From Physcomitrium patens (Eukaryota; Streptophyta; Bryopsida; Funariales; Funariaceae): a stretch of 64,000 nt of DNA. How positions within the stretch are numbered: the stretch's first letter is position 1; each line of letters opens with the position of its first letter. The notes beneath the pieces were generated by a model, which saw nothing but the letters and a program-made list of their open reading frames with translations, had not been told where the DNA came from and did not search any database. The stretch lies in the NCBI RefSeq assembly GCF_000002425.4, contig NC_037254.1, forward strand, positions 4,991,084 to 5,055,083. Direction: 5' to 3'. Positions 10,031 to 62,484 of the stretch are shown piece after piece. The position numbers and the translations under genes were made by a program.

Positions 10031-10275
10031 GAAGATTCAACAGAACGAAAAAAATCCATATGCACTTAATTGTATTCCAAGATTCGAATTTCGAACCAAC
10101 AAAGCTTCAATAAACTAAAACCCATCAACTTCCACGTCAGCACAGGAAAGTTGACTCCACACGGGGGTCCACAACATTACCGACGCTGCAACGAAGATCC
10201 CACCTCGGTCAGGTTCCACCAGAGGCACCGGGCACCCATTGAAGAGAAGGAGGGTTGGGCGGCAGTTTGGCCGAT
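10031..10275. other. Left outer flank of the gene palindrome
   Basis: Composition shifts here from AT-rich to GC-rich. Its last part (about 10215-10275) has recognisable but diverged inverse similarity to about 17120-17185 on the other side, sharing TCGGCCAAA and GTGCCCG-GTGCCTCTG-type strings. Homology between the two sides therefore extends beyond the near-identical arms. Confidence 0.5.
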
Positions 10276-10440
10276 GGAGGCAGTGAGAGGGAGGAAATGA
10301 GAGGAAATGCAGGAAAAGGAGGGTGCTCCCCTCTCTTGCTCACTAACTGACGAGCCGACGCAGGAACGGACGAACGACCAGACGGACGGACGTCCAAGGG
10401 CCTCCCTCCCGCCCTCGCCTTCCCTCGCCTTCCCTCCCTC

Positions 10441-11259
10441 CCTCCCCTGGAAGGTTTTCCCGCGCACTTCTCCCCCTCACACTCTCTCTCACTCTCTCAC
10501 TCCAGCAATGGCCAGCCGGCCATAGCCCACTCCCTCATTCACTCACTCCCCCTCCCCTCCCGCTCCCGCCCTTCGCCCCCCCTCGCGCAACCGCTTTCTC
10601 CCTTCCCCTTCCTTCCTTTTCCTCCGAGCTCGCTGCCAGGGACCGTTCTCGTGCCGCGCTGTGGTTGCCAGGTCGGATTTCGAGGCGCCCGTGAACAGCG
10701 AGAGCCTGCGCGCGTTTTTGAGCCATTCGTGGGAGGGAAGTCTTCCGCACCGTTGTGGCTTCCTCTGGAGCGCGCGTCGGAGTTGCTGCTCGGACATTGG
10801 AGCTTCGGAGCTGGCGCAGCCGGGGAGTTGTTGCGTTTTCTGGGTCGGGAGGTCGGGGTGCCAGGGCGGGAGTTGACGTGTAGTTTTGGGGATACGAGGC
10901 TGGGGTGGTAGTGGGGGGTTCTTGCGGGGGATTTTGAGAAGTTTTGATGGGTATTTGCGGTGATGAGGTTTGGGGGCTTGCCGTGGTGGAATGAGGGGTA
11001 CGTTGAAGGAGAGAGAGGTCTGTCGGGGAAATTCGAGTGCAAGCGGGAGTGTGATGGAGCGAGTTTGTGGTAGAGGGAGGCCGATGGTTGCAGTGGTGAG
11101 CTCGGTGGGATCGGTGGATTCGATTGGGACATGTTGGTAGGCAGAGACTAGGGTTAGGGCGTGGGCAGTGACCGTTGGGTGCCATTAGTTTGGTTGAGTG
11201 TGGGAAGCGGCCGTGGACCCTGGAGCTTGCGTTTCTGAATTTTCGAGGGGCTTGTTGCC
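10441..11259 (+). promoter_or_regulatory. GC-rich promoter / 5' leader of left BAH-PHD gene
   Basis: GC-rich sequence directly upstream of the ATG. It begins with pyrimidine-rich tracts, including a CTCTCT-type run at about 10478-10503, which often marks TATA-less plant transcription starts. No convincing TATA box is visible. A telo-box-like motif lies at 11149-11159, about 100 bp before the ATG. The 49-bp block that differs between the arms (10632-10680) falls in this region, so the two gene copies differ here and not in their exons. Confidence 0.5.
11149..11159 (+). promoter_or_regulatory. Telo-box-like motif
   Basis: TAGGGTTAGGG, the reverse complement of CCCTAACCCTA, close to the plant telo-box AAACCCTA. 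It sits just upstream of the coding start. A weaker GGGTTAGG lies in intron 2 (about 12073-12080). Confidence 0.5.
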
Positions 11260-12847
11260 ATGGCGAAGCCGAAGAACGGGAAGAAGACTCTCGACTCGTG
11301 CGTCATTAAAGGCACTCGGAAAATTGTCAAAGGTATGGTCACTTCCGAAGAAGCATTAGGCTCTCGCTTGATCCTCAGTCTGCCTTCGGATTTCGAAAGC
11401 TTCGAGCGGGTCAAACTGGCTGCTTGCAAGTAGCCAAACCGGCTGTTTTTTTCTTTTTTATTTTTTCTTCCCATTTCAAGTCTGTCAGCGATGTGTTTGG
11501 TTGTGAACAATCGTCCAGTGTGATCAGTCATTAGACGTGGCATGGGATTCGTGAGAGGATATGTCCTTGCGATTGAAGCGATTTTGTGGCGGATAATTGG
11601 GTTTGTGGCAGTTGGAGATACAGTTCTGATGCGCAGCGAGGATGCGGATAAACCTCCCTATATTGCAAAGGTAGAGAAGATCGAGGGTGATAGTCGAGGC
11701 AACGTGAAAGTCCGGGTCCGGTGGTACTACCGGCCGGAAGAATCCATGAGCGGGCGCAAGCAGTTCCATGGACAGAAGGAGGTTTTTCTGTCGGACCACT
11801 ATGACGTGCAGAGCGCGGACACAATAGAAGGCAAGTGCATTGTTCACTCTTTCAAGAACTACACGAAGTTGGAGACTGTGAGTGCTGAGGACTATTTCTG
11901 TCGATTCGAGTATAAGGCAACCACTGGCGGTTTCACCCCTGATCGCGTCGCTGTGTAAGGCTCCGCATTGCATGAATGAGTCGTTTAAGATGGGCATAAC
12001 CTATGAAGTTTGCGTGTGGTAATGCGCAGCGCATGTTAGGCGTTGGGTCTTCTGTGAGGTGCAGTGAGTCAGGGTTAGGTTTGTGCAGTTAACGACTTTG
12101 TCGATTTCGTTGATAACTTGGAATGGGGTGTTTCAGGTATTGCAAGTGTGAGATGCCATACAACCCTGACCACGTGATGCTGGAATGCAACAGTTGCAAA
12201 GACTGGTGAGGTTGCTGTGCTCTAATATTGCTCATCAGTGAAGTGCTTGCTCAGTCAGTCAGTAAAGACTCGTGCCTCGACCTAAGTCTCGTGCGCTTGA
12301 AGCTTGGTGTTTCGTTTGGTTCGGTCGAGGCATGGTCACGTGTTCACGCAGATGCAGTGGCTACTACAGATACGCGGATGCTTAGCTGAACGACAATCTT
12401 GCTGAATGGGTGGGTGCAGGTTTCACAGACATTGCGTGGGCTTGAGCGAAGAGCAGGTGAAACATGTGGATAGATACATTTGCCCTACTTGTGCCCCTGA
12501 AACTGTGAAGAAAAGCAATGGATCGTCACATAAGACACCAGACGCGAAGGTAACCTCCGTTGAATTTGCACTAGCTGCCTTTTCTTCAATTGCGTTGGTT
12601 TTTCATTACACATAGGGTCCCACGATCTTATGGTCGTTTCACCATGGATTCGTGAAAAGTTTGGCTTTTGCAAGGCCGCACTTCTTCTCGCTTTTAGACT
12701 TGTGTCGGTGAGAGCTTATGCATGTTCTTCATGCCGGATCAATTATTTTTTATGGTCGCATGACCTGTCCGAACTGGATAGTTTTTTTTCTTAATAGCCG
12801 TGGTGTACTATTGTGTGCAGCCGGATCTGAAACGTCAGAGGAGGTGA
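11260..12847 (+). CDS. EBS/SHL: BAH-PHD histone reader, EBS/SHL family (left copy)
   Basis: Five exons give a 213-residue protein: 11260-11332, 11612-11954, 12137-12205, 12420-12549, 12821-12847. All introns are GT-AG and phases join cleanly. The start ATG opens a short lysine-rich N-terminus followed by [13 protein letters not shown]. The BAH domain spans about residues 20-138, with [27 protein letters not shown]-like [12 protein letters not shown] and CRFEYKA. The PHD finger (about 140-190) has the full Cys4-His-Cys3 set (CKC, CNSC, HRHC, CPTC) and the cage Trp in CKDW. The C-terminus is short and basic (PDLKRQRR). Arabidopsis EBS and SHL are about 230 residues and read H3K27me3 through BAH and H3K4me3 through PHD in the nucleus, repressing flowering and other genes; this role is inferred from the family. 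The gene converges on its mirror copy, with 1.65 kb between the stop codons. Confidence 0.92.
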
Positions 12848-13345
12848 CCTCAAGTCAAGCTTGGCGCATTGCTCAAGTGGTTCTTGCAGTATGTTTCAGA
12901 TGTCAGAGATATGAGAAGTTGGTGTAGATATGAGGATTCAGATGCAAAATGTAAGATAGTGAGTTGACTACCTTGGTGGGTTCTACATTTCAGCGACCTT
13001 TTCTAGAATCCGAAGCTGTGTATTATGATCCACTCAAAGTGTTTATTGGAATACACGAGTTGGGGCTGTGCCAATTACGCAGTCCGAGGTCTCTTCCTCT
13101 GCTGTCTCAGGGTAACGAGCGCATAATTGCTTGATGAGAATTCACTCTACCTGTGAGCATTAATCCTCTTAGATGAACCTGCGGCCCATTTGCCTGTCTC
13201 GGTCAGCAAGACATTTTGTCCAGTTGGGCACAAGTTGCAATAGAAAGCTAGGTCGCTGGCATATAAAGCTGGATCCAGCATTGACGTGTACCTCATCTCT
13301 AATATCTACTGTGTTGCAAAATCAACTACTTCGCGAACTTTAGTC

Positions 13346-13995
13346 TACTGTCCTTTCTTGTTGCGTTTGTTTGGTGTTGGAGTTTTCTTGTGACGTATGG
13401 GCGACAATAGGTTTTGGTCGTCTTTTTCATGTAGTACTTCATTAGATTGTCGTCCTGCTCGTATTTTTCGTAATTGGTGAGCCCCTTCATTGTTTTGTTG
13501 AGTGGAGTATTTGAGAGATACTCGGTGAACTAATTTTATCGAATTTGAGACCCATATCTATAGTGACTGCGTCCGTCGAGGACCGTGATAAAAGCACACT
13601 TGACTTAATTGTCCGTCGTCTTGAAGAAGGAAGGTGTAAGCTGCATTAAGTACAGAAATTGCACATGCTTGGAATTATTGTCCATTGTTCAGTAGCATTA
13701 TGTACCTCTAATGCTTCTTTCGTTACAGTTTTTTGTTCACCCTAGTCGGATATTCAACAAAATTGAAAGTTTCCTTCGAGTTGCGAAACCTGGTTACTAA
13801 AGCACTGTCATATCCAACAGGAAACTGCAACTACTGTTTTCTCCATGACACAGTCTCAACATACTGCTGAATAGTTTCTTTATATATACATTGAAAGTGT
13901 TTGCAATCGAAATTGTTTGCTTAATACAATACAGTGTAACGTACATTCAACACTCTCAACAAAGAGGTACGAAACTCAATAAAAAACGGGTAAAC
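13346..13995. other. Spacer (650 bp) between the palindrome arms
   Basis: Unique sequence between the two arms, of ordinary composition. No open frame or domain is recognised. It lies downstream of both converging genes and may hold 3'-end signals; an AATAAA lies at about 13978-13983 on the + strand. Confidence 0.7.
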
Positions 13996-14493
13996 GACTA
14001 AAGTTCGCGAAGTAGTTGATTTTGCAACACAGTAGATATTAGAGATGAGGTACACGTCAATGCTGGATCCAGCTTTATATGCCAGCGACCTAGCTTTCTA
14101 TTGCAACTTGTGCCCAACTGGACAAAATGTCTTGCTGACCGAGACAGGCAAATGGGCCGCAGGTTCATCTAAGAGGATTAATGCTCACAGGTAGAGTGAA
14201 TTCTCATCAAGCAATTATGCGCTCGTTACCCTGAGACAGCAGAGGAAGAGACCTCGGACTGCGTAATTGGCACAGCCCCAACTCGTGTATTCCAATAAAC
14301 ACTTTGAGTGGATCATAATACACAGCTTCGGATTCTAGAAAAGGTCGCTGAAATGTAGAACCCACCAAGGTAGTCAACTCACTATCTTACATTTTGCATC
14401 TGAATCCTCATATCTACACCAACTTCTCATATCTCTGACATCTGAAACATACTGCAAGAACCACTTGAGCAATGCGCCAAGCTTGACTTGAGG

Positions 14494-16081
14494 TCACCTC
14501 CTCTGACGTTTCAGATCCGGCTGCACACAATAGTACACCACGGCTATTAAGAAAAAAAACTATCCAGTTCGGACAGGTCATGCGACCATAAAAAATAATT
14601 GATCCGGCATGAAGAACATGCATAAGCTCTCACCGACACAAGTCTAAAAGCGAGAAGAAGTGCGGCCTTGCAAAAGCCAAACTTTTCACGAATCCATGGT
14701 GAAACGACCATAAGATCGTGGGACCCTATGTGTAATGAAAAACCAACGCAATTGAAGAAAAGGCAGCTAGTGCAAATTCAACGGAGGTTACCTTCGCGTC
14801 TGGTGTCTTATGTGACGATCCATTGCTTTTCTTCACAGTTTCAGGGGCACAAGTAGGGCAAATGTATCTATCCACATGTTTCACCTGCTCTTCGCTCAAG
14901 CCCACGCAATGTCTGTGAAACCTGCACCCACCCATTCAGCAAGATTGTCGTTCAGCTAAGCATCCGCGTATCTGTAGTAGCCACTGCATCTGCGTGAACA
15001 CGTGACCATGCCTCGACCGAACCAAACGAAACACCAAGCTTCAAGCGCACGAGACTTAGGTCGAGGCACGAGTCTTTACTGACTGACTGAGCAAGCACTT
15101 CACTGATGAGCAATATTAGAGCACAGCAACCTCACCAGTCTTTGCAACTGTTGCATTCCAGCATCACGTGGTCAGGGTTGTATGGCATCTCACACTTGCA
15201 ATACCTGAAACACCCCATTCCAAGTTATCAACGAAATCGACAAAGTCGTTAACTGCACAAACCTAACCCTGACTCACTGCACCTCACAGAAGACCCAACG
15301 CCTAACATGCGCTGCGCATTACCACACGCAAACTTCATAGGTTATGCCCATCTTAAACGACTCATTCATGCAATGCGGAGCCTTACACAGCGACGCGATC
15401 AGGGGTGAAACCGCCAGTGGTTGCCTTATACTCGAATCGACAGAAATAGTCCTCAGCACTCACAGTCTCCAACTTCGTGTAGTTCTTGAAAGAGTGAACA
15501 ATGCACTTGCCTTCTATTGTGTCCGCGCTCTGCACGTCATAGTGGTCCGACAGAAAAACCTCCTTCTGTCCATGGAACTGCTTGCGCCCGCTCATGGATT
15601 CTTCCGGCCGGTAGTACCACCGGACCCGGACTTTCACGTTGCCTCGACTATCACCCTCGATCTTCTCTACCTTTGCAATATAGGGAGGTTTATCCGCATC
15701 CTCGCTGCGCATCAGAACTGTATCTCCAACTGCCACAAACCCAATTATCCGCCACAAAATCGCTTCAATCGCAAGGACATATCCTCTCACGAATCCCATG
15801 CCACGTCTAATGACTGATCACACTGGACGATTGTTCACAACCAAACACATCGCTGACAGACTTGAAATGGGAAGAAAAAATAAAAAAGAAAAAAACAGCC
15901 GGTTTGGCTACTTGCAAGCAGCCAGTTTGACCCGCTCGAAGCTTTCGAAATCCGAAGGCAGACTGAGGATCAAGCGAGAGCCTAATGCTTCTTCGGAAGT
16001 GACCATACCTTTGACAATTTTCCGAGTGCCTTTAATGACGCACGAGTCGAGAGTCTTCTTCCCGTTCTTCGGCTTCGCCAT
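14494..16081 (-). CDS. EBS/SHL: BAH-PHD histone reader, EBS/SHL family (right copy)
   Basis: Mirror-image copy on the minus strand. In transcription order the exons are 16081-16009, 15729-15387, 15204-15136, 14921-14792, 14520-14494. The encoded 213-residue protein appears identical to the left copy, with all exons, splice sites, BAH motifs and PHD zinc ligands intact, so neither copy looks like a pseudogene. The genes are tail to tail, so read-through of either would make RNA complementary to the other. The identity implies a very recent duplication, ongoing gene conversion, or a fold-back artefact of sequencing or assembly. Confidence 0.88.
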
Positions 16082-16900
16082 GGCAACAAGCCCCTCGAAA
16101 ATTCAGAAACGCAAGCTCCAGGGTCCACGGCCGCTTCCCACACTCAACCAAACTAATGGCACCCAACGGTCACTGCCCACGCCCTAACCCTAGTCTCTGC
16201 CTACCAACATGTCCCAATCGAATCCACCGATCCCACCGAGCTCACCACTGCAACCATCGGCCTCCCTCTACCACAAACTCGCTCCATCACACTCCCGCTT
16301 GCACTCGAATTTCCCCGACAGACCTCTCTCTCCTTCAACGTACCCCTCATTCCACCACGGCAAGCCCCCAAACCTCATCACCGCAAATACCCATCAAAAC
16401 TTCTCAAAATCCCCCGCAAGAACCCCCCACTACCACCCCAGCCTCGTATCCCCAAAACTACACGTCAACTCCCGCCCTGGCACCCCGACCTCCCGACCCA
16501 GAAAACGCAACAACTCCCCGGCTGCGCCAGCTCCGAAGCTCCAATGTCCGAGCAGCAACTCCGACGCGCGCTCCAGAGGAAGCCACAACGGTGCGGAAGA
16601 CTTCCCTCCCACGAATGGCTCAAAAACGCGCGCAGGCTCTCGCTGTTCACAGGCGCCTCGATCCAGCCCTGGTACCAGGCTCAGTATCCACCCCACCTTT
16701 TCCCTTTTTGAGCTCGGAGGAAAAGGAAGGAAGGGGAAGGGAGAAAGCGGTTGCCCGAGGGGGGGCGAAGGGCGGGAGCGGGAGGGGAGGGGGAGTGAGT
16801 GAATGAGGGAGTGGGCTATGGCCGGCTGGCCATTGCTGGAGTGAGAGAGTGAGAGAGAGTGTGAGGGGGAGAAGTGCGCGGGAAAACCTTCCAGGGGAGG
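16082..16900 (-). promoter_or_regulatory. GC-rich promoter / 5' leader of right BAH-PHD gene
   Basis: Mirror of the left upstream region, including the pyrimidine tracts. It differs in the 49-bp block (16661-16709) and at single positions 16651 and 16755. Confidence 0.5.
16182..16192 (-). promoter_or_regulatory. Telo-box-like motif (right copy)
   Basis: CCCTAACCCTA on the + strand, the mirror of the motif at 11149-11159, again just upstream of the coding start. Confidence 0.5.
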
Positions 16901-17065
16901 GAGGGAGGGAAGGCGAGGGAAGGCGAGGGCGGGAGGGAGGCCCTTGGACGTCCGTCCGTCTGGTCGTTCGTCCGTTCCTGCGTCGGCTCGTCAGTTAGTG
17001 AGCAAGAGAGGGGAGCACCCTCCTTTTCCTGCATTTCCTCTCATTTCCTCCCTCTCACTGCCTCC

Positions 17066-17345
17066 CTCGGATCCCCCTCTGTATGTTTGCCCCCTCTGTA
17101 TGTTTGCCCCCTCTGCGACAGTTCTCGGCCAAATTCTCCCCCCCCCCCCCCTCCCCCCTTCTACCGTATGCGTGCCCGCTGCCTCTGTTGTTTGCAGGCG
17201 TGGTGTGGTTCCAATCGTTTAAAAGTTGGATTTGGCGATTATCTCACCAATTCTTTTATGGATGCTTTGTCCCTGTCGTGGTTCTGCTAACAGTGGGCGA
17301 TCTCCTTGACTTGCCAGCCGCGAATGTGTGAGTTTGTTTCCTAAG
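17066..17345. repeat. Right outer flank: 17-bp tandem repeat and poly-C tract
   Basis: Just outside the right arm there are about 2.5 copies of a unit like CCCCCTCTGTATGTTTG (about 17073-17117) and a C homopolymer at about 17138-17151. After the tandem repeat, diverged homology to the left outer flank resumes (TCGGCCAAA at about 17127). The repeat thus looks like an insertion or expansion into an older inverted duplication. GC content then falls to the AT-rich background by about 17345. Confidence 0.6.
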
Positions 17346-19297: not shown

Positions 19298-19341
19298 GCA
19301 AGTTTTAGGGACATATTCTTTAGAACTTTCTAGAGAGAAGT

Positions 19342-19563
19342 TTCTAGAAACTTCTAGAAAACAAGCCTCTAGAACCTTCTAGAAGAGAAGCCTCTGGAAC
19401 CTTTTAGAGAGAAGTTTCTAGAAGCTTCTAGAAAAGAAGTCTCTGGAACCTTCTAGAAAGGAATCCCCTGGAACTTTCTAGAAGCTTCCTAGTTAATAGA
19501 AGTAGCTCGAGAAGTTTCTAGAACCTTCTAGAAAGGAAGCCTCTGGAACCTTCTAGAAGCTTC
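19342..19563 (+). promoter_or_regulatory. Heat-shock-element array in element A U3
   Basis: Perfect heat-shock elements (alternating GAA and TTC pentamers with 2-bp gaps) of four pentamers each occur at 19342-19359, 19416-19433, 19471-19488, 19516-19533 and 19546-19563. Three-pentamer sites lie at 19372-19384 and 19446-19458. All lie within 265 bp upstream of the TATA box. In plants such arrays bind heat-shock factors and drive heat-activated retrotransposons such as ONSEN; heat response of this element is inferred. Confidence 0.8.
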
Positions 19564-19604
19564 CTAGTTAATAGAAGTAGCTCGAGAAGCTTCTTAAGTA
19601 GGAG

Positions 19605-19612
19605 TATATATA
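19605..19612 (+). promoter_or_regulatory. TATA box of element A 5' LTR
   Basis: TATATATA, 32 bp before the start of the 11-nt tract that matches the primer-binding site. Confidence 0.75.
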
Positions 19613-19617
19613 GGGAT

Positions 19618-19643
19618 CGAGGCTGAAGAGTTCTTCAGTCTCG
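19618..19643 (+). promoter_or_regulatory. U3/R palindrome at the transcription start
   Basis: Two 12-nt arms (19618-19629 and 19632-19643) pair fully with one G-U. The right arm contains most of the putative self-primer (19637-19647). The matching palindrome in D is a perfect 12-bp stem of different sequence (41773-41800), and B's 3' LTR keeps all 12 pairs with three wobbles (62328-62353). Confidence 0.75.
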
Positions 19644-19774
19644 ACAACACATCTCTTGGAGTTCTAGTTCACCTTTCTGGTGTTGTTCTTGTACTCATCT
19701 GTTTAATCTAGTTCTGCCACTTCTTCTTGAACTTCTTGTTAGATTTCAAGTCTGTATTTTGTGTCCGTGACAGT

Positions 19775-19785
19775 TTGTCGAGACT
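19775..19785 (+). promoter_or_regulatory. Putative self-priming primer-binding site, element A
   Basis: TTGTCGAGACT starts 2 nt after the LTR end and is the exact reverse complement of AGTCTCGACAA at 19637-19647, which lies at the predicted RNA 5' end. Complementarity is exactly 11 nt. Yeast Tf1 primes reverse transcription with the first 11 nt of its own mRNA annealed to a site just after the LTR. Element D has the same arrangement with a different sequence. Confidence 0.72.
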
Positions 19786-19799
19786 ACACTAACTTGAGA

Positions 19800-19808
19800 T
19801 ATCAGAGC
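19800..19808 (+). other. Vestigial initiator-Met tRNA primer site
   Basis: TATCAGAGC matches the common plant retrotransposon site TGGTATCAGAGC but lacks the TGG that pairs with the tRNA CCA end. It also lies 27 nt from the LTR, not next to it. The same truncated motif is at 42002-42010 in D. Confidence 0.5.
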
Positions 19809-19820: not shown

Positions 19821-20009
19821 AGTAGAGTGTGGATTATCCCTCTACTTAAAGGTATACTAGCATTTTTTAGAGGTTGCGGATTACCCTCATCTAAACTGAT
19901 ACTTCTTCTGTTACAATATTGGAGTCTTATTCTTCTTGGAGAGAGTGGATTACCCCTCTTCTTGAAATTCTTAAGGCGTTTTATAGGTTGTGGATTACCC
20001 TCCTATAAA
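19821..20009 (+). promoter_or_regulatory. Leader hairpin array with GTGGATTAYCC-type loops
   Basis: Four hairpins present nearly the same loop on different stems. H1: 19821-19827 with 19840-19846, 7 bp. H2: 19866-19871 with 19890-19895, 6 bp plus a bulged extension. H3: 19941-19945 with 19956-19960, 5 bp with one G-U. H4: 19980-19987 with 20002-20009, 8 bp. Every loop contains GGATTAYCC preceded by GTG, GCG or TG. The same design occurs in D (42028-42096) and E (34806-34932). Candidate roles are RNA packaging, dimerisation or translation control. Confidence 0.75.
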
Positions 20010-20052
20010 CCAATATTGCCTCTTATAGGGTCATTTTTGTCCTTCTTTTAGA

Positions 20053-21078
20053 ATGGCCGGAGGTCAAGACATTAGTATGACAGAAAGTTCGGAGTCTAAG
20101 TTAGATGCTATTATGAATGCCCTCGCTACGTTATCACAAAGAACTGCAGAGATTGAAGGAGTGGTGGTAAGGCTTCATAATGATGGAGTATCTGGGATAG
20201 CACAATCTAAACTACACCAACCTCAAATTTTGGCACTTGGAGAAACAATTTTACCTCAGGTTCCACAAGAACCACTAGTTCTACAACATAAGGAGCCTCG
20301 AGTTAGCCTTCTAGATAAGTTTGATGGAACACGTTCCAAGTTTCGAGGATTCGTCAATCAAATCAAGTTGATAACAGTTTTACAGCCCGAACGATATTCA
20401 ACGGAGGAGTCACGTGTTGGGCTTGTTGGAACCTTACTTACGGGACAAGCTCTATCATGGTTTGCTCCTTTGTTTGAGAAACGATCATCCATATTAAACA
20501 ACTTCGAAACCTTTTTGGAAGCATTTGCGGAAGCATTTGGTGAACATGATAAGGTTCGATGGGCTACAACAAAGATCCGGTCGCTACGACAAGGGATGCG
20601 TTCTACATCAGTCTATGCTTCGGATTTCACGTAATTAGTATGCGACATGAATTGGGATGAAGAAGCGTTGATGAGTCAATTCTATTGGGATTTAAGAGAT
20701 GATGTGAAGGATTTGCTGTTAACTCTTCCTGATCCACGAACGCTCAATGAAGCCATTAGCTAAGCTGTGAAGTGCGATAATCGCCTATTCCAACGTCGCC
20801 AAGACCAACGCTCAAGACAACATACAATTCGCCATGCTCCAACTATGTCGGCAAGCGATGTGAATTCGCATTCAGAGGTGGAAGACATGCAAATTGATGC
20901 GGTACGTATCAAATCTCTTACTATAGAAGAAAAAAAGCGACGTATGGAGGAAAATTTATGCTTGTATTGCGGTGGAGAAGGCCACAAAGTCGGAAACTGC
21001 CCCAAAAAGCAAAATCGAGGCACAGTCAAGACTAGGGGAGTATTTGTTCAGGAAAACGAGGATGCCCAGCCACAGTAA
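20053..21078 (+). pseudogene. gag: Element A gag (two in-frame stops)
   Basis: Capsid/nucleocapsid frame of about 341 codons. The ATG at 20053 follows the hairpin leader. A predicted coiled N-terminus is followed by the capsid region (FDGTRSKFRGFVNQI, then FLEAFAEAFGEHD) and a CCHC zinc knuckle, CLYCGGEGHKVGNC, near 20959. TAA stops at 20632-20634 and 20761-20763 interrupt it; both fit CAA-to-TAA changes. The protein would form the virus-like particle and bind the RNA. It ends at TAA 21076-21078, overlapping the pol frame. Confidence 0.85.
21036..21078 (+). other. gag-pol overlap, possible -1 frameshift zone
   Basis: Pol is open from 21036 in the frame -1 relative to gag, and gag stops at 21078, leaving a 43-nt overlap. 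CAG GAA AAC GAG in the gag frame is kept in B (43244 onward), and D has a similar GAAAAT. The site is not a textbook X XXY YYZ heptamer, so the shift mechanism is uncertain. Confidence 0.4.
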
Positions 21079-24000
21079 GAACCGTGCGGCTGGACAATGA
21101 AATATCCCAACAACAATCGGGTTCCTTTCTTTCTGCCCAACCTGCACTTTGTTTTACAATCCCTCTGTTTATCGGCCCTCAAAAACTAAGAACCTTAGCA
21201 CTACTAGACTCAGGAGCATCTGCTTGTTTTTTAGACGAAGAATTTGCAAAGCGTCATAAGATTCCTTTAGTACAAAAATCAAAACCTGTTCATGTTGAGG
21301 TCATAGATGGACGACCTTTATTGTCTAGTAGCATCACCCATGAATCAAAACCTATAGAAGTAACATTTAAAGACCATAGTAGTCATATTATTTTTAATAT
21401 TATTAGAATCCCATCAAATCCTATTATTCTTGGTCTTTCTTGGTTGGAAAAACATAATCCATTGATAGATTGGAGGTTGCGGAAGATGACTTTTCCCACA
21501 AAACCACCCAAGAAAAAACCTAGTAAAAAACCTCGAAAAAAGAAATCCTTATTCATTGGAGCAAGAGCGTTTATAAGATCCTCTAAGGAAGGCACTCCAT
21601 TTGTCATTTATGCGGCTCCAACTACCGAGGAGAAGATTTCAACAGCAAGTATACCGGAGCAATATAAAGATTTTGAAGACGTGTTTCAAAAGAAGAACGC
21701 TGACATACTACCGGAACACCGACCATATGATTGTGCCATAGACTTGCAAGAAGGAGCACAACCACCTTTTGGCCCAATCTACAATCTATCGCAAATGGAG
21801 TTGGCAGAGTTACGAAAGTACATCGACGAGAATCTAGCCAAGAACTTCATTCGTCATTCAAAATCATCAGCTGGAGCACCCATCTTATTTGTGAAGAAGA
21901 AAGATGGATCATTACGGATGTGTGTGGACTATCGAGGCCTCAACAAGGTAATAAAGAAAAATCGTTATCCATTACCCTTGATTTCTAGTCTCTTAGAACA
22001 ACTTGGACGTGCGAAGATCTTTACAAAAATTGATCTAAGGGGAGCTTATAATCTTGTACGAATCAAGGAAGGAGATGAGTGGAAGACAGCATTCCGTACA
22101 AGGTATGGTCATTTCAAATATAATGTCATGCCTTTTGGTCTTACTAATGCTCCAGCGGTTTTCCAACATATGATGAATGACATCTTTCGAGAACACCTCG
22201 ACGATTTTGTTGTCATCTACTTGGACGATATTCTAATATTCTCTAAAAATGAGGAAGAGCATGAGGAGCATGTTCGTTTGGTCTTGGAAAAACTACGCAA
22301 GTGAGGACTATATGCCAAATTAGAAAAGTGTTTATTTCACTAGACGGAGATGGAATTTTTGGGGTTCATTGCGACTACAGAAGGTTTGAAGATGGACCCC
22401 AAGAAAGTAGAAGCAATCATGTCTTGAGAGGTTCCGAAGACGGTTAGAGACGTACAATGCTTTCTTGGTGTTGCTAACTTCTATCGGATCTTCATCAAGA
22501 ATTATTCTCAAGTTGCTGCTCCTCTCACTTGATTAACATGCAAGGATAAGTTGGAATGGGGACCTTTGGCGGAGAAGGCATTTCAAGATTTGAAGACAGT
22601 TTTTACTACAGCTCCAATTTTGGTACATCCAGACTTTACAAAGTCCTTCTATTTAGAAATTGATGCTTCAAATTTTGCTTTGGGAGCTGTGCTTTCACAA
22701 ATGAGTGAAGATAAGAAGCTCCATCCAGTTGCATTCTATTCTCGGAAGTTCTCTGCTGCTGAAATCAATTATGAGATCCACGATAAGGAACTTCTTGCTA
22801 TAGTGGATTCTTTCGAAGAATGGCGTCACTTTCTTGAAAGAGCTGCACATCCAGTAACCATATATGCGGATCACAAGAATTTGGAGTATTTCATGACGGC
22901 TCGAGTTTTAAATCGACGTCAAGCTCGGTGGAATATGTCGCTATCTAGATTCGATTTTGTTATCACTTATCGACCTGGAAGGCAGCAAGGACTATCCGAT
23001 GCTTTATCAAGGAGATCGTATCTTGCACCAAAGGCTGGAGAAGCAGCGTTTGATCAACAATGTACAACGTTATTGAAGCCAGAGAGATTTCAGCTTTGTG
23101 CTACTATTGTATCATTTGATGCTGACTTCCTAAACCAGGTACGTGCTATGACCATTAAAGATTCAGTAGCCATTGATATCAAGCAACGTACCAATGACGA
23201 CAAGTTCAAGGTGGAGGGAGATCTTTTATACTTTGAAGAGCGATTGTACATTCCAAAAGGACTAGCACGACTCCGAGTTCTTCAATCTCGCCATGATTTT
23301 CCAGCTGCGAGACATTTTGGATTCAACAAGACCTTGGAGCTTATTTCCCGAGATTTTTGGTGGTCCCAAATGTGGAAGGATGTGAAAGATTTTGTCCTCT
23401 CTTGTGACATCTATTTAAGATCTAAGAATCCTCGGCATCGCCCTTATGGACTTCTACAGCCATTGCCAATTCCACGTCGACCATGGTCTTCAATTTCTAT
23501 GGACTTCATCACGGACTTGCCATCATCAAACTCATTTGACAGCATCTTTGTCGTGGTAGATCGGCTTACGAAGATGGCACACTTTGTTCCTTGTAAGAAG
23601 ACATCGTCCAGTGAAGTCACTGCAAGACTCTTTTTCGATAATGTGTATCGATATCATGGACTACCAGATGATATCATATCAGATCGAGGTACCGAGTTCT
23701 TGTCAAAGTTTTGGAGATCTCTCTTTGGGATATTGAAGGTGGATATCAAGCTTTCTTCAGCTTTTCATCCTCAAACTGATGGCCAAACGGAATGAGTGAA
23801 TCAAGTCTTGGAGCAGTACTTACGATGCAGCATCAACTATCAGCAAGACGATTGGACTGCATATCTACCACTAGCCGAGTTTGCATATAACAACACCCTC
23901 CATGCGTCGACTCAACAAACACCATTCTTTTCCAACTATGGGTATCATCCGAAGCTTGATTTATTGAGTCCGTCAACAAATAACAATCCAGCAGCTGAAG

Positions 24001-24554
24001 GATTTGCGAAGCAACTATCAGAGCTTCAAACTATGTTGAAGCTTTAATTACAATCCGCTCAAGAATCCTATAAGACGTCTGCAGATAGATTTCAGAATCC
24101 AGCACCTACTTTCAAAGTTGGAGACAAAGCCTGGCTTCTTCGACGAAATATCAAGATCAAGCGACTATGTGATAAGTTGGACTATCGAAGATTGGGACCA
24201 TTTATCATCCAGAAGCAAATTAATCCAGTGACATACCGGTTGGAGTTATCGGCTTCTATGAAGGTACATCCAGTCTTTCATGTTTCTCTGTTGGAACCTT
24301 ATCGAGAGTCATCTTTTCCCGGAAGAGTGCAATGTCCGCCACCTAGTATTGAAATCAAGAACCACAAAGAATACGAGGTTGAAAAGGTATTGGATTCACG
24401 GCGAAGGTGGAGAAAGTTAGAATATCTTGTTCATTGGTGCGGCTATGACATTAATGAGCGAACGTGGGAGCCACTTGAAAATCTTGCGAATGCGCCACAA
24501 AAGGTATAGGAGTTTCATCAACAACATCCCGATAAACCTAAATCAATTCGATGA
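21036..24554 (+). pseudogene. pol: Element A pol: protease, RT, RNase H, integrase, chromodomain
   Basis: One continuous frame with several stops. Order: aspartic protease ([10 protein letters not shown], about 21220); reverse transcriptase ([17 protein letters not shown], catalytic YLDDILIFS about 22219); RNase H (EIDASNFALGAVLSQ, about 22655); integrase with HHCC zinc site, whose third ligand is present but fourth is Tyr (SCDIYLRSK), then the D-D-E core (MDFITDLP, ISDRGTEF, HPQTDGQTE); GPF module; and chromodomain (YLVHWCGYDINERTWEPLENL region, about 24378-24490), which would target insertion to heterochromatin marks. Stops include 22302, about 22338, about 22425, about 22530, 23793, 24045 and 24507. 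Where element B can be compared it usually keeps a sense codon (CGA, CAA or CGG). The natural end is TGA 24552-24554. Confidence 0.9.
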
Positions 24555-25057: not shown

Positions 25058-25071
25058 AAAGGAGGGGGTGA
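25058..25071 (+). other. Polypurine tract of element A
   Basis: AAAGGAGGGGGTGA directly before the 3' LTR, the expected primer for plus-strand synthesis. B keeps it at about 62073-62086. Confidence 0.85.
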
Positions 25072-25566
25072 TGTTAAGGACATATTTCTTAGAACTTTCT
25101 AGAGAGAAGTTTCTAGAACCTTCTAGAAAATAAGCCTCTGGAATCTTCTAGAAGAGAAGCCTCTGGAACCTTTTAGAGAGAAGTTTCTAGAAGCTTCTAG
25201 AAAGGAAGTCTCTGGAACCTTCTAGAAAAGAAGTTTCTAGAAGCTTCTACAAAGGAATCCCCTGGAACTTTCTAGAAGCTTCCTAGTTAATAGAAGTAGC
25301 TCGAGAAGTTTCTAGAACCTTCTAGAAAGGAAGCCTCTGGAACCTTCTAGAAGCTTCCTAGTTAATAGAAGTAGCTCGAGAAGCTTCCTAAGTAGGAGTA
25401 TATATAGGGATCGAGGCTGAAGAGTTCTTCAGTCTCGACAACACATCTCTTGGAGTTCTAACTCACCTTTCTGGTATTATTCTTGTATTCATCTGTTTAA
25501 TCTAGTTCTGCCACTTCTTCTTGAACTTCTTGTTAGATTTCAAGTCTGTATTTTGTGTCCGTGACA
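25072..25566 (+). repeat. Element A 3' LTR
   Basis: 495 bp, TGTTAAGG to CGTGACA. It carries the same decamer heat-shock array (for example 25111-25128), TATA box, U3/R palindrome (25412-25437) and putative primer tract (25431-25441). It is followed by the GCAAG target duplication. Confidence 0.93.
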
Positions 25567-25571
25567 GCAAG

Positions 25572-26230: not shown

Positions 26231-28010
26231 ATAAAACAAGGTGGATTTACAATCTTGAGACTCACCAAGTCAATAATGAGATAAAATAGGGAAACAAGAC
26301 TCCTCAGTAAAGGCATCAAGGACTAGTATTAGGAACAACTACTATCTCTCAAAGTTAAATGGCATGGCTTCAAGCAACTATAAAAAAAATCGACTAGTGT
26401 ATCTAATGAGACTATTAAAATGACAATCATATTGAGTGCTTGTAGATTGTAGCTCTACGGAAAATTGCATCTTGATTAAAATTGCCAATCGATTTGGAAT
26501 TAAAACTAAGGTAATCAAGAGAGTCAATATATACCTTGCAGATGATTGAAAGAATGTATTGAGTGAGACATGTGAAGAAGAAACCTTGAGATTGACTGAC
26601 ACCTATGTCTTAAGAGAGAAGTTCAAGGTAATAAAGCTAAGATATGATGTTATGCTTAGTATGCCATGGCTAGTGGTGGAAAATAAGCAAGTTGATTGAG
26701 TAGCAAAGTTAATCTCTTTCAAAGGGGGTGGATATAAGTTGATCCTTTGTACCTCCACATTGAATGAAGAGAAAAAACAAACTGCAACTAAAGACTTATT
26801 CATAGGAATGACCTTTATAAAGAAAAAAATATAAATTAAGCAATCAATATATATGATGTTTTTAAATCTTACATCAGTGGTGGAAAAGATAGCTAAAGTA
26901 GTAGAATAGGCAAAACAAATCATAAAAAAATATCGAGATGTCTTCTCAACTGATCTATCTAATGGCGAGCCTCTTGATCAAGGTGCTTGCTTTCAAATAG
27001 AACTATTGTCTAGAGCCAAACCAACAAATTGGCCAATTTATTACCTAACACCAAATGAACTTGAAGAGCAGCAAAAGACATTGGACAAACTCTTGAAGAA
27101 GGGCCTCATTCAAGAAAGCACATTACTATAGGAAGCACATGTAGTCTTTGCATGCAAGAAAGATGGTGGACTTCAATTTTGTATGGACTATCAAGGCCTC
27201 AATAAGAAAATTGTTAAGAATGCATATCCACTTTTATGCATAGATGATCTTCTTGATTAACTTTGAGGTACAATTACCTTTAGTAAATTAGATTTTTGGA
27301 GTAGCTATTGACAGATACCTATTACAAGAGAGAATATAGAAAAGACAATATTTTGTACACACTATGGATATTTTAAATGTCTTGTTTTATCTTTTAGCCT
27401 CACCAACGCTCTAGCCTCTTTCATGGATTACATGAATAGATTGTTTTGGAACTTTTTAGAGTAGTATGTAGTTGTTTCATTGATGATATTTTTGCATATA
27501 ATAAAATCTTTAAGGAATTTGAGCAACTCCTATGAGAAGTATTGCATCGGCTATAAGATAGTTGCTTTTATTACAAGCAATCAAAATATGAACTTTGGAA
27601 GTGGGAAGTCACGTTTTTGGAGCATGTAGTATCCTTGGAAGGTGTACGCATGAAGCAAGATAAGATGAAAGTAGTGGAGAATTGACCAACTTCTAAAGAT
27701 GCTTTTGAAGTTTGCTCATTTTCAGGCCTTGCTGGATATTATCGTCATTTTATTTGATAATTTGCACAAATTACTGCCTCATTGACAAACTTATTGGAGA
27801 AAGGTATCTCATTTGAATGGAAACTAGAACACCAAATTGCTTTTGATAGGTTGAAGGAGGCACTTATTTTTGCTCCAATATTCCAATTATATGATCTTAA
27901 CTTTCTTTGTATACTTGACATTGATGCTTTCGACTTTGCTTTTCAAGCGATCCTTTAATAAGACTTTTGTAGAGGCCTTCAACCTATGGCATATAAATCA
28001 TGCAAGCTCA
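26231..28010 (+). pseudogene. pol: Element F pol: protease remnant, RT and RNase H
   Basis: Recognisable [21 protein letters not shown] near 27150, then LVLSFSLTNALASF near 27385. This is followed by RNase H (GLAGYYRHFI at about 27727, LDIDAFDFAFQAIL about 27915). Stops are frequent and the catalytic DD region is degraded. This is a Ty3/gypsy element older than element A. It stops being recognisable near 28010, and an integrase-like stretch resumes about 2.4 kb later. Confidence 0.75.
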
Positions 28011-34932: not shown

Positions 34933-35540
34933 AAATAAGATAAAAATAGTAAGTTATTATTCTTATCAAACAATCAATGATATGAATCTCAAAAAAAAAA
35001 AATCCTTAATATACTCATGTATCATTGAAAGGAACTAGAAAGTCTTTCAAACATGATATAATATTGAACTAGAATGGCTATTGCCAAAAACAAGAAGACT
35101 AAAAAGACTTGGAACAAGAGTAGGGATTAGAAAGGCATTGAAAAGAGTGAAGATGTCTTTACTCTTGCTTCTATAAATATTCTCTAACTAGAAGTTATGT
35201 CGTGATATTCTATAGAACCTCCAATATGTGTTGATTTTGCTAGCCATATGTCTTAATTTGTAAAGCAAGTAATCTATATATGTGACACATAATTAGCTTG
35301 TTTCAAAAGCTATTACACGGAATTAACTTGTTCCACAAGTTACCAACACGTGATTAATTTTTGGACAAGTTTTTAACCTATAAATACATCTAAAGTCAAA
35401 ACCACATTTGTAAAGCTTTTAAGAAGCTTTTCTAAAAGACTTTATGAAATTAATCTATATTTACCTACTTCTACTTAATCATATAAGTAACTATTGAAAG
35501 AAATGTATATATTTATTGCTGTGTTGTAGTTCAGCTACCA

Positions 35541-41417: not shown

Positions 41418-41978
41418 TGTCATGGACATATTCATGTAAGCCAGTAATTACATATATAAATAGGTAGAAGTAAATAAAAGTAGATAAAAGTAAGTTAATT
41501 CTATAGTATTTGGTATGAAAGCTTTCTAGAAGCTTTATAGACGTTGCTTTGACTTTATAGATGTCTTTAATTGACTTTTTGGATTAGAAACGTGGTGAAC
41601 AAGTTGGCCATGTGCCACACATGTTGTTAGCTTGAAGACCAAGCTAACAATGTGGCCCACACGTAGAAAAACTTGCCTTGTAAGTCAAAGCATGTATCCT
41701 ACAAAGTCAACACTTATTGGAGGTCCTATAGAATGTCGCCACATAGCCCTTAGTTAGATAGTATATATAGAGACAAGAGTGAAGCCTTCTTCACTCTTGT
41801 CAACTCCTTTCTTGCTTCTAGTCTAGTTTCAAGGGTCTCTAGTTTTCTTGTCTTTTGGCAATAGCCATTCTAGTTTTTCTTTCAATATATATACTTGTTT
41901 ATTTATATTTTGTTATCTTTTTTTGAATGAAGGCTCACTTGTCTGAATTACTTTTTCATGGAGTTCTTATCCTTGACA
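41418..41978 (+). repeat. Element D 5' LTR
   Basis: 561 bp, TGTCATGG to CCTTGACA with inverted ends. It has a TATA box at 41762-41769, a U3/R palindrome at 41773-41800 and a putative self-primer tract at 41793-41803. It is related to the A LTR in layout and to the E LTR in sequence, but has only isolated heat-shock pentamers (TTTCTAGAAGCTTT near 41525). No matching 3' LTR is present; the composite ends in an A/B-type LTR. Confidence 0.75.
41773..41800 (+). promoter_or_regulatory. Perfect 12-bp U3/R palindrome, element D
   Basis: ACAAGAGTGAAG, CCTT, CTTCACTCTTGT. Compared with A, at least three base pairs are changed on both sides with pairing kept. Confidence 0.8.
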
Positions 41979-41980
41979 GA

Positions 41981-41991
41981 TTGACAAGAGT
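41981..41991 (+). promoter_or_regulatory. Putative self-priming primer-binding site, element D
   Basis: TTGACAAGAGT starts 2 nt after the LTR end and is the exact reverse complement of ACTCTTGTCAA at 41793-41803, which begins 31 nt after the TATA box. It has the same geometry as element A with a different sequence. A truncated iMet-like TATCAGAGC follows at 42002-42010. Confidence 0.72.
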
Positions 41992-42027
41992 ACACCTACA
42001 ATATCAGAGCTTTGTCTAATCTTGATT

Positions 42028-42096
42028 AAGAGTGGATTATTCTTTTTTCTTGATAAGACATAAGTATATTAGAAGTTGCGGATTATCTTCTTCTAA
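42028..42096 (+). promoter_or_regulatory. Leader hairpins of element D
   Basis: Stem 42028-42032 with 42042-42046 (5 bp, one G-U) has loop TGGATTATT. Stem 42069-42075 with 42090-42096 (7 bp perfect) has loop TTGCGGATTATCTT. These correspond to H1/H3 and H2/H4 of element A. Confidence 0.65.
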
Positions 42097-42190
42097 ACTG
42101 ATATTATCCTTCGTATTTTATTTGTTCTCAAGTCCACTCTTCTATTTGTCTTGAGCGATATTAAACATCTTTTCTTTTCTAAGTGTTATC

Positions 42191-43215
42191 ATGACAAAAC
42201 TTCCTGAAATGAAGAGTGCAATGGCAGAAATGCAAGAGAAATTGAGGGAGTTAATACTTGCGATGCATCAACTCAATTTACCACCACAAAGAGCAACAAG
42301 ATTGGCAGAAAGTGAAGATATAGAAATGGTTGGAGCTGCTTCAACATCTGCACAAAATCATGTCCTTTCTCCTATAGTAGAATGTCCTTCCAGTGTAAGA
42401 GAACCAAGAATTTTCCTACTTAAGAAGTTTGATGGCACGAGATCCAAGTTTCAAGGATTTATCAATCAAGTACAACTTGTGATTGAACTTCAATCCCAAA
42501 GCTATCCAACTCCAGGATCGCAAGTTAGAATCATTAGTATGCTTCTTTCAGATTCAATTTTATCGTAGTTTTCATCTTTTTTTAAACAATGAGATTCAAT
42601 ATTAGATAATCTAGAGACTTTTTTGGCGGAGTTTTGATCCATGTATGGAAAACATGATGCAATTCGTGTTACGACCAATAAGATCCGTATTTTATAATAA
42701 GGCAATCGATCAGTAACATTGTATGCTTCACAATTTTGACAACTTGCAACTGATATCAAGTGGGATAATATTGCATTTATTAGCCAATTTCTATACGGAT
42801 TACAATATGAAGTAAAAAAATTAATGCTCAACTTATCTGATCCTCAATCATTGAGTCAAGTAATTAACTTTGTTGTGAAGTGTGACAATCATCTTTTTGA
42901 ATTTTGATCTGAGAACCATACAAGTGGACCTCAACGTTACTATAATTCAATGGCAACACCAACACCTCTTCAATACATACATTCAAAAGTAGAAGATATA
43001 CAAATTAATGCAGTATGTTTCAAATCTCTTATTGAGCAAGAAAAGACTCGTCGTCGTCAAGAAGGATTATGTTTATATTATGGAGAACCAAAACATACTG
43101 CTCAATATTGTCCAAAGAAATGACGCAACCACAAAATGAGGAGTATGGCTATCAAAGAAGACAATATGTTAGAAAATGAGTTTGTCCAGCTACAATAGGG
43201 ACTGTGCGGCTAGAA
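42191..43215 (+). pseudogene. gag: Element D gag
   Basis: Starts MTKLPEMKSAM and runs through a capsid block (LLKKFDGTRSKFQGFINQV) closely parallel to element A's gag. A stop follows at 42566-42568 (TCG to TAG), with several more beyond. The zinc knuckle near 43070 has lost its second Cys (CLYYGEPKHTAQYC). It ends in sequence matching the end of A's gag, then jumps back to an A/B-type copy of the same region at about 43216. Confidence 0.75.
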
Positions 43216-43337
43216 TCGACGTATTGTCAAGACTAGGGGTGCGTTTGTTCAGGAAAACGAGGATGCCTAGCCACAATAGGAACCGTGCGACTGGACAGTG
43301 AAATATCACAACAACAACCAGGTTCTTTTCTTTCCGC
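43216..43337 (+). pseudogene. Element B, gag end left of the C insertion
   Basis: TCAAGACTAGGGG...GAAAACGAGGATGCC matches A at about 21024-21140 and continues at 58131 after the nested C array. The last four bases, CCGC (43334-43337), are repeated at 58131-58134 as the target duplication. Confidence 0.8.
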
Positions 43338-44622
43338 TGTCGTGTTGTAACACAAGTATATCGTGAAAATATAAAGAAAAGGGACTTTTATTAATATTCA
43401 GTTACCTCGAATATTAGGAGCAACGAACAACTCCAGTGCAAATACTGAGTGGTCAGGTTCAGTCACCCCGTTACAGTGAGCTGGGGCATACTGAAATGCT
43501 CCATTTGATTCCAATAACGGGAGTCGGCAGGAAGGAAAAGGATCAATTAACGCGACGGGTGAGCCTGGTTCGAAGAGCCAATTGGATCTAATTTCGAGAA
43601 TCCAATCCGGGTCCTCTTATCCAATATGAGACCTGAATTGGTCGGGCAACCCAATGCGATCCAATTTCGAGAATCCAATCTGGGTCCTCTTATCCAATAT
43701 GAGACCTGAATTGGTCGGGCGACCCAATGCAGTCTAATTACGGAAAAATCCAAGTCTTACTTCGGGCATCTTACCTAATATGAGAACTGCATTGGTCAGG
43801 CAATCCAATGCAGTCTGTTTACGGGAACATCCAGGTTACTACGGGTCCTCTTACCCAATATGAGACCTGAATTGGTCGAGCGACTCAATGTGGACCCAAG
43901 TACGGGATTTCGATTTTGTTTCAGGCTGTCCTATTCTCTGTGCCGTTTTGAAAGCTCTGACGGCGGGAGCCAATTTCGGATCTAAGCTCTGACGATGGGA
44001 GCCATGTCCGGATCTAAGACGGAAGATTGAAGAAATTCAGAGGATAAGGTTAGGGGAAGAATGAGATCGAGGGGATTGAAGAGGAGCTTCATGCTTTGGG
44101 TCGGGAAAGAAAAGACGGAGAATTGGATTTTTCTTCTTCATAGAGTTTTGGGAAGACTGAGGCAATCGTTGCTGAAGTCAGTGTTGTAATGGTGAATCGG
44201 GATTTTTTTTAATGAAGTAGGTTTGACTACTCTTGACTATTTTGTGAAATCGAATTACGTCTGTGATTGAAGAATTAAAAGGGTGTCTATAGGATTGAGT
44301 ATGCGAAGTGAATGAAATTTATTGAGTTAATCTAACAAGACAGTCAGTGGATACAAGATCGTAAGTACAAAGCAGTATCGGAGATTAACAGATTGGATTA
44401 TTCGGGGTTCTCTGTAACGTCTAGAGACCTACCGGCTGAGGCAAAAAGGACTTCGACAAGCAGTCGAAGGGCATCCGTATAGATTTACGATGTATTCTTA
44501 CAGTCGTTTATATTCCAGCAGTCAAAAACTGATAGACTGCTTGACTATTGGCGAATCTCCATACTACCTTCTACAGCCAAACGCTCGGCGCATTTTGGAG
44601 CAGGAAAGCACGTAATACGACA
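43338..44622 (+). repeat. C array LTR1 (1285 bp)
   Basis: TGTCGTGTTGTAAC to TAATACGACA. It contains four units of a 73-81-bp repeat (CCAATATGAG-like starts at 43621, 43694, about 43775 and about 43855), each with CCAAT and inverted ATTGG. The primer site follows at 44628 (TGGTGAACCCGACGTGAA), beginning TGG as for tRNA priming; I cannot assign the tRNA. Confidence 0.88.
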
Positions 44623-44693
44623 AAAAGTGGTGAACCCGACGTGAAAGCTTGAGGTGGAAGGTATTGGATTTCGGTTGATTTTATCTTTATTTT

Positions 44694-47066: not shown

Positions 47067-47068
47067 AG

Positions 47069-50000: not shown

Positions 50001-50541
50001 AAAATCAATTATGCCGATTGAAGAAAAGGTACTTACTTGGAGTATGCTACCATAGGAAGATGGATTGACAAGAGAAGAACTTCTGGCTATTAGGATTCGA
50101 CAATTGGAGCAAAGAACGGAAGATGTCCAGATAGCATTGGGAAGGTTAAAAAGAGCAAGGTTACAAAACAAGGCACGATTCGATAAGCAACATCGATTGA
50201 GACCAAAAGCAATCGAGGAAGGTGACTGGGTACTTGTTTATGATAATAGTCTAGATAATCAACATAGTACTTAACGGAAATTTTCAAAACGTTGGTTTGG
50301 ACCATATGTGGTAACAACTGTTCATGATAATGCGACTTACTCGTTACGGGAGTTAGATGGTATAAAATTAAAAATACCAATTGCAGGGAAGCGAGTAAAA
50401 ATATTTAAACGAAGACACGTAGAGATGAATATGGAAGATCTTAATGAAGGTATAGAAATTCAGTAGCAAGAAGATGAAAGTGATTTGGATAATGAAGGTG
50501 ACGAAGACGAACAAGACAAAGACGTAGAGGATATATTCTGA
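47069..50541 (+). pseudogene. pol: C1 pol: RT, RNase H, integrase with GPY and acidic tail
   Basis: RT includes WFTVPKKNGSLRF (about 47850) and catalytic MPFLDDVPIKG (about 48183), with FLDD in place of YXDD. RNase H follows (ILTVDASPIPIGWAVGQD, about 48680), then integrase with zinc-site CEICQSYS, VVDLV, ITADRGE and NPEENAKSEH (D-D-E) at about 49480-49850. A GPY module RWFGPYVV lies near 50295, and a strongly acidic C-terminal segment near 50475-50538. Stops: 47105, 47735, 47966, 48581, 49151, 49448, 49798, 50053, 50272 and one near 50464; a 1-bp indel near 49590 shifts frame. Confidence 0.85.
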
Positions 50542-50590
50542 ATCAAACAGTAATTGAGTAAATTGGTGCATACCCGAGGATGCACAAGTT

Positions 50591-50603
50591 CAGAGGGGGT
50601 GGA
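50591..50603 (+). other. Polypurine tract before C array LTR2
   Basis: CAGAGGGGGTGGA directly precedes the TGTCGTG start of LTR2. Confidence 0.8.
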
Positions 50604-51927: not shown

Positions 51928-51998
51928 TAAGTGGTGAACCCGACGTGAAAGCTTGAGGTGGAAGGTATTGGATTTTGGTTAATTTTTTCTTTATTTTT

Positions 51999-54371: not shown

Positions 54372-54373
54372 AG

Positions 54374-62086: not shown

Positions 62087-62484
62087 TGTTAGGAACATAG
62101 TCCTTAGAATCTTCTAGAGACAAGTTTCTAGAACCTTCTAGAAGCAAGTCTCTGAAACCTTCTAGAAGCTTCTTAGTTGGTAGAAGATATTAGAGACATA
62201 GTCCTTAGAACCTTTTAGAGATAAGTTTCTAAAACCTTCTAGAAGCAAGTCTCTGGAACCTTTTAGAAGCTTCCTAGTTGGTAGAAGTTGCTTGGGAAGC
62301 TTCCTAAATAGAAGTATATATTGGAATCGAGGTTGAAGAGTTCTTTAGTCTCGACAATACATCTCTTGGAGCTCTAGCTCATCTCTCTGGTGTTGTTCTT
62401 GTATTCATCTGATTAATCTAGTTCTTGCCAGTTCTTCTTGAACGTCTTATTAGATCTCGAGTCTGTATTTCTATGTCCATGACA
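62087..62484 (+). repeat. Element B 3' LTR
   Basis: 398 bp, TGTTAGGAACATAG to CATGACA, preceded by polypurine AAAGGAGGGGGTAA. It has heat-shock elements (for example 62126-62143), a TATA-like box near 62314, the U3/R palindrome 62328-62353 and primer tract AGTCTCGACAA at about 62347-62357, identical to A's. No matching 5' LTR or target duplication exists; the left end of the composite is the D LTR. Confidence 0.85.

Follow-up and report, generated by a model that had tools for sequence, protein, structure and literature searches.

Element A, a retroelement in the 64-kb window (the whole stretch of DNA that was analysed), very probably started its own reverse transcription from the first 11 nt of its RNA, in the manner of the yeast element Tf1. 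Such a reading had been put forward in an earlier note on this DNA, and it is supported here by the exact complementarity of two 11-nt tracts, by their position relative to the TATA box and the LTR end, and by the co-change of the two tracts across related families. In the proposed mechanism, the RNA of element A would begin at A19637, and its first 11 nt would reach across the leader to form a duplex with the site located 2 nt behind the LTR. Cleavage by the element's RNase H between nt 11 and 12, just after CAA, would then release an 11-mer as primer of minus-strand DNA. Plus-strand synthesis would copy a new binding site off the primer itself, such that a change in the LTR tract would pass to the site in the next copy.

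Paired tracts and coding capacity of element A

The tracts AGTCTCGACAA and TTGTCGAGACT (Table 1) are exact reverse complements, as had been claimed, and the accompanying statements of the earlier note hold as well: the complementarity goes no further than 11 nt in either direction, the second tract lies 2 nt behind the 5′ LTR (end at 19772, borders set by eye), and the first tract follows at 32 nt a TATA box, TATATATA, that starts at 19605. Bare 11-nt complementarity was dropped as evidence, since AT-rich DNA has too much of it. At a spacing of 80-320 nt, each strand of the window has 55 exact complementary pairs of 11 nt, against 33.5 in shuffles, and this abundance of unplaced pairs is what a chance origin of the match would draw on. 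On adding a TATA box 27-36 nt upstream, 10 pairs are left on the plus strand and seven on the minus strand (shuffles, 3.9), and on further adding CA plus 2 nt before the second tract, only 19637/19775 and 41793/41981 are left on the plus strand, against 0.075 in shuffles, with none left on the minus strand of the window as read from the individual rows. The match in element A is unusual by its position (TATA spacing and LTR end) and not by complementarity alone. Given this placement, and given that pairing is kept by five tract versions that co-change across families (see below), chance complementarity in AT-rich DNA has next to no probability as an explanation.

A target-site duplication flanks element A. 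From 19305 on, the alignment of its two LTRs shows 14 substitutions, including 13 transitions, over 468 aligned columns, besides 25 gap columns. The reading frames are broken by stops, and the domain matches were found in the pieces between them (Table 1). Domain order is PR-RT-RH-IN with a chromodomain at the end, as in Ty3/gypsy chromoviruses, and in an alignment the chromodomain places three aromatic residues at the positions of the HP1 aromatic cage. The best explanation of these sequence features is a decayed, chromodomain-bearing Ty3/gypsy element, probably of the Tf1/Sushi-like kind (Tcn1 in plants). To the right of element A lies the remnant of another reverse transcriptase (26925-27482), which is ∼40% identical to that of element A.

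The U3 of element A (19305-19636; 25074-25430) is an array of perfect matches to the heat-shock-element consensus. Three-unit overlapping matches and matches to CTnGAAnnTTCnAG number 15 and 7, respectively, in the 5′ LTR, 17 and 7 in the 3′ LTR, and 3 and 1 in a further A-family 3′ LTR of the window (B3), with none in B5; in 1000 shuffles of the 5′ U3 the means are 0.003 and 0.001. Judged from this array, element A may be heat-induced. Elsewhere in the window, a large inverted repeat (10271-17070) has 2666-nt arms (10680-13345 and 13996-16661) that are 100% complementary and 650 nt apart, and is extended by outer arms of 361 nt at 99%. No Pfam match was obtained for the open frames of 254-255 aa tested within it, and the repeat is either a recent palindrome or an assembly artefact.

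Table 1. Features of element A and of related copies in the 64-kb window
Feature	Position	Strand	Details
Target-site duplication GCAAG, element A	left 19298..19302, right 25567-25571	+	Read from sequence
5′ LTR, element A	19303..19772	+	LTR alignments; borders by eye
TATA box TATATATA	19605..19612	+	32 nt before element A tract
Predicted hairpin across putative U3/R border, element A	19617..19644	+	12 bp, 4-nt loop; z -5.1 sense, -4.1 antisense
Candidate self-primer tract AGTCTCGACAA, putative RNA 5′ end, element A	19637..19647	+	11 nt; complementarity, TATA spacing, C|A context
Putative primer-binding site TTGTCGAGACT, element A	19775..19785	+	Exact reverse complement of 19637-19647
gag piece, element A	20029..20634	+	201 aa, ends at in-frame stop; Pfam DUF4939, Retrotrans_gag
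Protease and reverse transcriptase piece, element A	21036..22304	+	422 aa; Pfam RVP_2, RVT_1
RNase H and integrase piece, element A	22533..23795	+	420 aa; Pfam RT_RNaseH, Integrase_H2C2, rve
Integrase tail with chromodomain, element A	24048..24509	+	153 aa piece; PDB chromodomain matches, best E 1.2e-8
Polypurine tract ahead of 3′ LTR, element A	25058..25068	+	By eye
3′ LTR, element A	25072..25566	+	Tract at 25431-25441, hairpin at 25411-25438; borders by eye
Decayed B-like copy C	34959..35148	-	Tract 35148-35138, binding site 34969-34959, 9/11 paired
Candidate self-primer tract ACTCTTGTCAA, family B	41793..41803	+	31 nt after family B TATA; hairpin 41772-41801
Putative primer-binding site TTGACAAGAGT, family B	41981..41991	+	Exact 11-nt complement of own tract
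Tract AGTCTCGACAA in further A-family 3′ LTR (B3)	62347..62357	+	Hairpin 62327-62354, three G-U pairs

Co-change of tract and binding site in related copies

Related copies were taken both from the window (Table 1) and from outside it. Element B (about 41430-43213 joined to 43214-62486) appears chimaeric, its 5′ part being of the B family and its 3′ part of the A family, with the two joined out of register. Another insertion apparently interrupted it afterwards (about 43338-58132). Within this nested insertion are an RVT_1 piece (47969-48580), tandem repeats of 73-81 bp, an A-rich run (56804-56907) and several repeated stretches that are related to one another. One scan of genome contigs returned 15 loci (L001-L015) as relatives outside the window, and two scans of viral contigs returned no relatives. 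The contigs bearing the 15 loci look like eukaryote contaminants in bacterial bins, and for those from a Trichormus bin (run ERR2144891) the Azolla fern or its associates are probably the source. The gag and pol frames of L001 are open as far as the contig reaches. L003 (1-5200) and L009 (1-5265) have identical 55-nt contig ends and are likely assembly circles, each a whole element with one LTR. Most of these copies lack a second LTR, and in B and the contigs the end of the LTR was therefore set by the ...CA context.

The exact-match pair scan covered 14 of the 15 loci, L002 having too little upstream sequence, and found well-placed tract/site pairs in seven (L001, L003, L004, L005, L007, L009 and L013). 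An eighth, L006, was added by eye with 7/11 paired, the scan there giving misplaced 10-nt pairs only. L008, L010, L011 and L014 were without any exact-match pair, and L012 and L015 had misplaced pairs only; L008 and L015 appear to begin inside gag. Pairs out of TATA/LTR-end context were dropped, namely a 12-nt and a 10-nt pair in L012, the 10-nt pairs in L006 and L015, and second (10-nt) pairs in L004, L007 and L013.

The resulting set of 11 recognisable 5′ ends (A, B, C, L001, L003, L004, L005, L006, L007, L009 and L013) carries five tract sequences. Pairing between a tract and its own site is perfect in nine of them (A, B, L001, L003, L004, L005, L007, L009 and L013) and incomplete in C (9/11) and L006 (7/11), both of which look decayed. 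The exact match extends to 12 nt in L009, where 12 pairs are also seen by eye in the fold, and in L001, where an extra C precedes the putative start. When tracts are set against the sites of other families, 3-10 of 11 positions pair, the value of 10 belonging to two near-identical versions. The earlier note had asked whether the two tracts vary independently in other copies; they co-change across families instead. Diverged families would still match because a binding site templated by the primer carries the tract changes over. That tract and site have changed together over five sequence versions argues, on comparative grounds, for actual use of the pairing, the plants concerned probably being seed-free.

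The context of the tract is likewise regular. The TATA-to-tract distance, for TATA spellings that were accepted only after the sequences had been seen, is 32 nt in seven of the 11 5′ ends, 31 nt in two, 33 nt in one and 28 nt in the decayed L006, and the bases at -1/+1 are C|A in 11 of 12 copies (copy C stands outside this count). The 31-33 nt spacing in 10 of the 11, along with the C|A start, favours the RNA start at 19637 that the earlier note had supposed. All copies except B3 and C, hence 11 of 13, have CAA|C around the presumed cut, L009 in its 12-nt register. Such elements may be searched for by the rule TATA, about 32 nt, C|A, 11 nt, CAA|C.

Priming of element A by a tRNA was considered at TATCAGAGC, which resembles the initiator-methionine (tRNA-iMet) primer-binding site of other plant elements and lies past the LTR in A (19800-19808) as well as in B (42002-42010). 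A primer should fix the LTR end within a few nt, but TATCAGAGC is situated 27 nt (A) and 23 nt (B) from that end, and it is found on the plus strand in none of the 14 scanned loci, L001 included; what is conserved instead is the self-tract. Moreover, a tRNA-primed site complements the CCA end of the tRNA and hence begins with TGG, whereas the binding site starts with TTG in all 11 5′ ends, unlike that of a tRNA-primed plant chromovirus. Scans of the 64-kb window for tRNA and Rfam families gave no matches. On LTR distance and absence from the scanned loci tRNA priming at TATCAGAGC was rejected as very improbable, and the motif in A and B is perhaps a relic.

Predicted leader folds are largely in agreement with pairing of the tract and site. 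The lowest-energy folds pair the two fully in eight of the 11 5′ ends (A, B, L001, L003, L004, L005, L013 and, as judged by eye, L009); that of L007 is without the pairing, which costs 1.1 kcal/mol when forced, and the predicted folds of C and L006 are also without it. Further duplexes of the Tf1 (pretzel) type, in which sequences adjoining the binding site would pair with LTR sequence beyond the primer, were evaluated in nine copies with 500 shuffles each, as 18 tests taken singly, the value being the fraction of shuffles as good. The duplex resembling the Tf1 U5 stem, formed by the LTR end and the sequence just after the primer, is above shuffles in B (0.034), L003 (0.02), L004 (0.0), L005 (0.03) and L009 (0.048) and near to this in L013 (0.092), and among the nine copies is not above shuffles in L007 (0.482), A (0.876) and L001 (0.97). 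For the other duplex the fractions are 0.01 in L005, 0.036 in A, 0.05 in L004, 0.062 in B, 0.142 in L009 and L013, 0.56 in L003, 0.596 in L001 and 0.786 in L007. The leader of element A also has four stem-loop-like units around GGATTA(C/T)CC (19829-20000), two of which recur in B (42032-42090), with variants in C (four, about 34930-34770, minus strand) and L001 (two); they are possibly a packaging or translation signal.

A predicted hairpin across the putative U3/R border

The hairpin predicted for element A (Table 1) spans the putative U3/R border, and nt 1-8 of the primer tract lie in its 3′ arm. Ten of the 13 LTR copies (A 5′ and 3′, B3, B5, L001, L003, L004, L005, L007 and L013) have a predicted hairpin with a 4-nt loop over the putative start. 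Its length is 12-13 bp in nine of these, with one mismatch in L004; sense z values are -2.6 to -8.1, and the 3′ arm takes in 8-9 nt from the beginning of the primer tract. The hairpin is disrupted in C and L006 and missing from L009, and is thus not required by all elements. Upstream of the putative start, the U3 arm follows the changes of the primer in four tract versions out of five; L009 has no such arm. G-U pairs in the sense hairpin, which might point to a role in RNA, amount to only about four independent changes as counted by eye, and the antisense strand folds nearly as well, with z values of -1.4 to -7.1 over the same ten copies. As the antisense folding of such a palindrome is nearly as good, the hairpin alone cannot tell a role in RNA from one in DNA, and it is possible that the palindrome acts in DNA.

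The predicted pairing of the tract within the hairpin, in 10 of the 13 LTR copies, would also suit transcription that begins upstream of the hairpin, in which case the 5′ end of the RNA would be closed and the tract copy in the 3′ R, or another RNA molecule, would act as primer. Where the hairpin has 12-13 bp (nine copies), however, the 5′ arm begins about 10-13 nt past the TATA start, which is too close for usual initiation by polymerase II, and both the 31-33 nt TATA spacing and the C|A start point to the tract itself. An upstream start is accordingly improbable, if slightly less so than priming by a tRNA. Should the RNA start at the tract, as self-priming from the RNA 5′ end supposes, the complete hairpin is to be expected in the 3′ LTR copy of the RNA only, given that its 5′ arm belongs to U3. 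The hairpin poses the question of how a self-primed element distinguishes the 5′ primer copy from the identical 3′ copy, and a tentative answer, which we hold to be rather unlikely, would be a three-way match in which the primer pairs with either the binding site or the U3 arm, the 3′ copy is hidden from both site and cut, and only the 5′ copy primes. In a literature search over titles and opening lines of abstracts, a U3/R hairpin that matches a self-primer was not encountered, and the feature is possibly new.

Relatives and comparison with known self-priming systems

Among solved structures, the best relative of the element A reverse transcriptase is that of Ty3. In the best 120 of 7,960 matches of a search with this domain, most entries are unnamed; the named organisms are frogs, the fern Ceratopteris and the fungus Trametes, and a seed plant is absent from the named organisms among these 120, full-length polyproteins lying outside the length limit of the search. 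The L001 reverse transcriptase is 95% identical to that of element A over 217 residues. In a midpoint-rooted tree of 40 chosen rows, composed without Tcn1, Tf1, Sushi or seed-plant references, A and L001 join the Ceratopteris protein in a nine-row group (100/98) apart from the frogs and Trametes; an earlier tree of 54 rows had left out the short Ceratopteris row. Judged from these relatives, the host of element A is probably a moss or another seed-free plant.

In the portions of Neumann et al. 2019 (PMC6317226) drawn on here, self-priming is predicted for most chromoviruses of the plant Tcn1 clade (mosses, club-mosses), which are relatives of Tf1/Sushi, and for no other plant chromovirus clade; it is predicted also for TAR Ty1/copia elements. 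The same portions report an aromatic-cage chromodomain in 95% of Tcn1 and in part of Chlamyvir and Galadriel. The view of the earlier note that there is no well-described plant case stands in so far as the cited portions of the literature describe no experimental demonstration in a plant, and plant self-priming rests there on sequence prediction; it does not stand against the prediction for the plant Tcn1 clade. Element A is not the first plant case of self-priming, and the earlier prediction lowers the novelty and not the mechanism. In the cited parts of two further reports, the club-moss element SM-Tcn1 is without a self-primer or tRNA site (PMC2864245) and the dictyostelid Skipper chromoviruses are without such complementarity (PMC5006619), which would count against self-priming of element A. 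Hairpin priming is used by some chromoviruses, as stated in the cited part of PMC3601003.

For TAR elements self-priming is predicted or proposed (PMC6317226, in the portions cited), although they belong to Ty1/copia, another superfamily than the Ty3/gypsy element A. Tj1, Tosmo and Tcry of other fission yeasts have, according to the relevant parts of PMC4600332 and PMC10085805, a site that complements the 5′ end of their own mRNA, with a pretzel possible; these elements are fungal, and are likened to element A by description only. For Tf1 of Schizosaccharomyces pombe, priming with the first 11 nt of its own mRNA, as stated in the earlier note, agrees with PMC7175516 and PMC10085805 as far as cited: in Tf1, and putatively in element A, the 11 nt at the RNA start complement the binding site and the cut falls between nt 11 and 12, and both elements have a chromodomain. 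Again by description only, the two differ in that the U5 duplex that Tf1 requires according to those parts shows up in neither A nor L001, and a U3/R hairpin like that of element A is not mentioned for Tf1 in the same parts of these papers. With the plant Tcn1 clade, as described in the cited portions of PMC6317226, element A shares its chromovirus nature, an apparent aromatic-cage chromodomain and probable self-priming. Novikova 2010 (PMC2864245) places Tcn1-like elements, in the part cited, in mosses and Selaginella, with no clones obtained from the ferns sampled, whereas element A has probable relatives in ferns, represented by the Ceratopteris protein and perhaps by the Trichormus-bin contigs.
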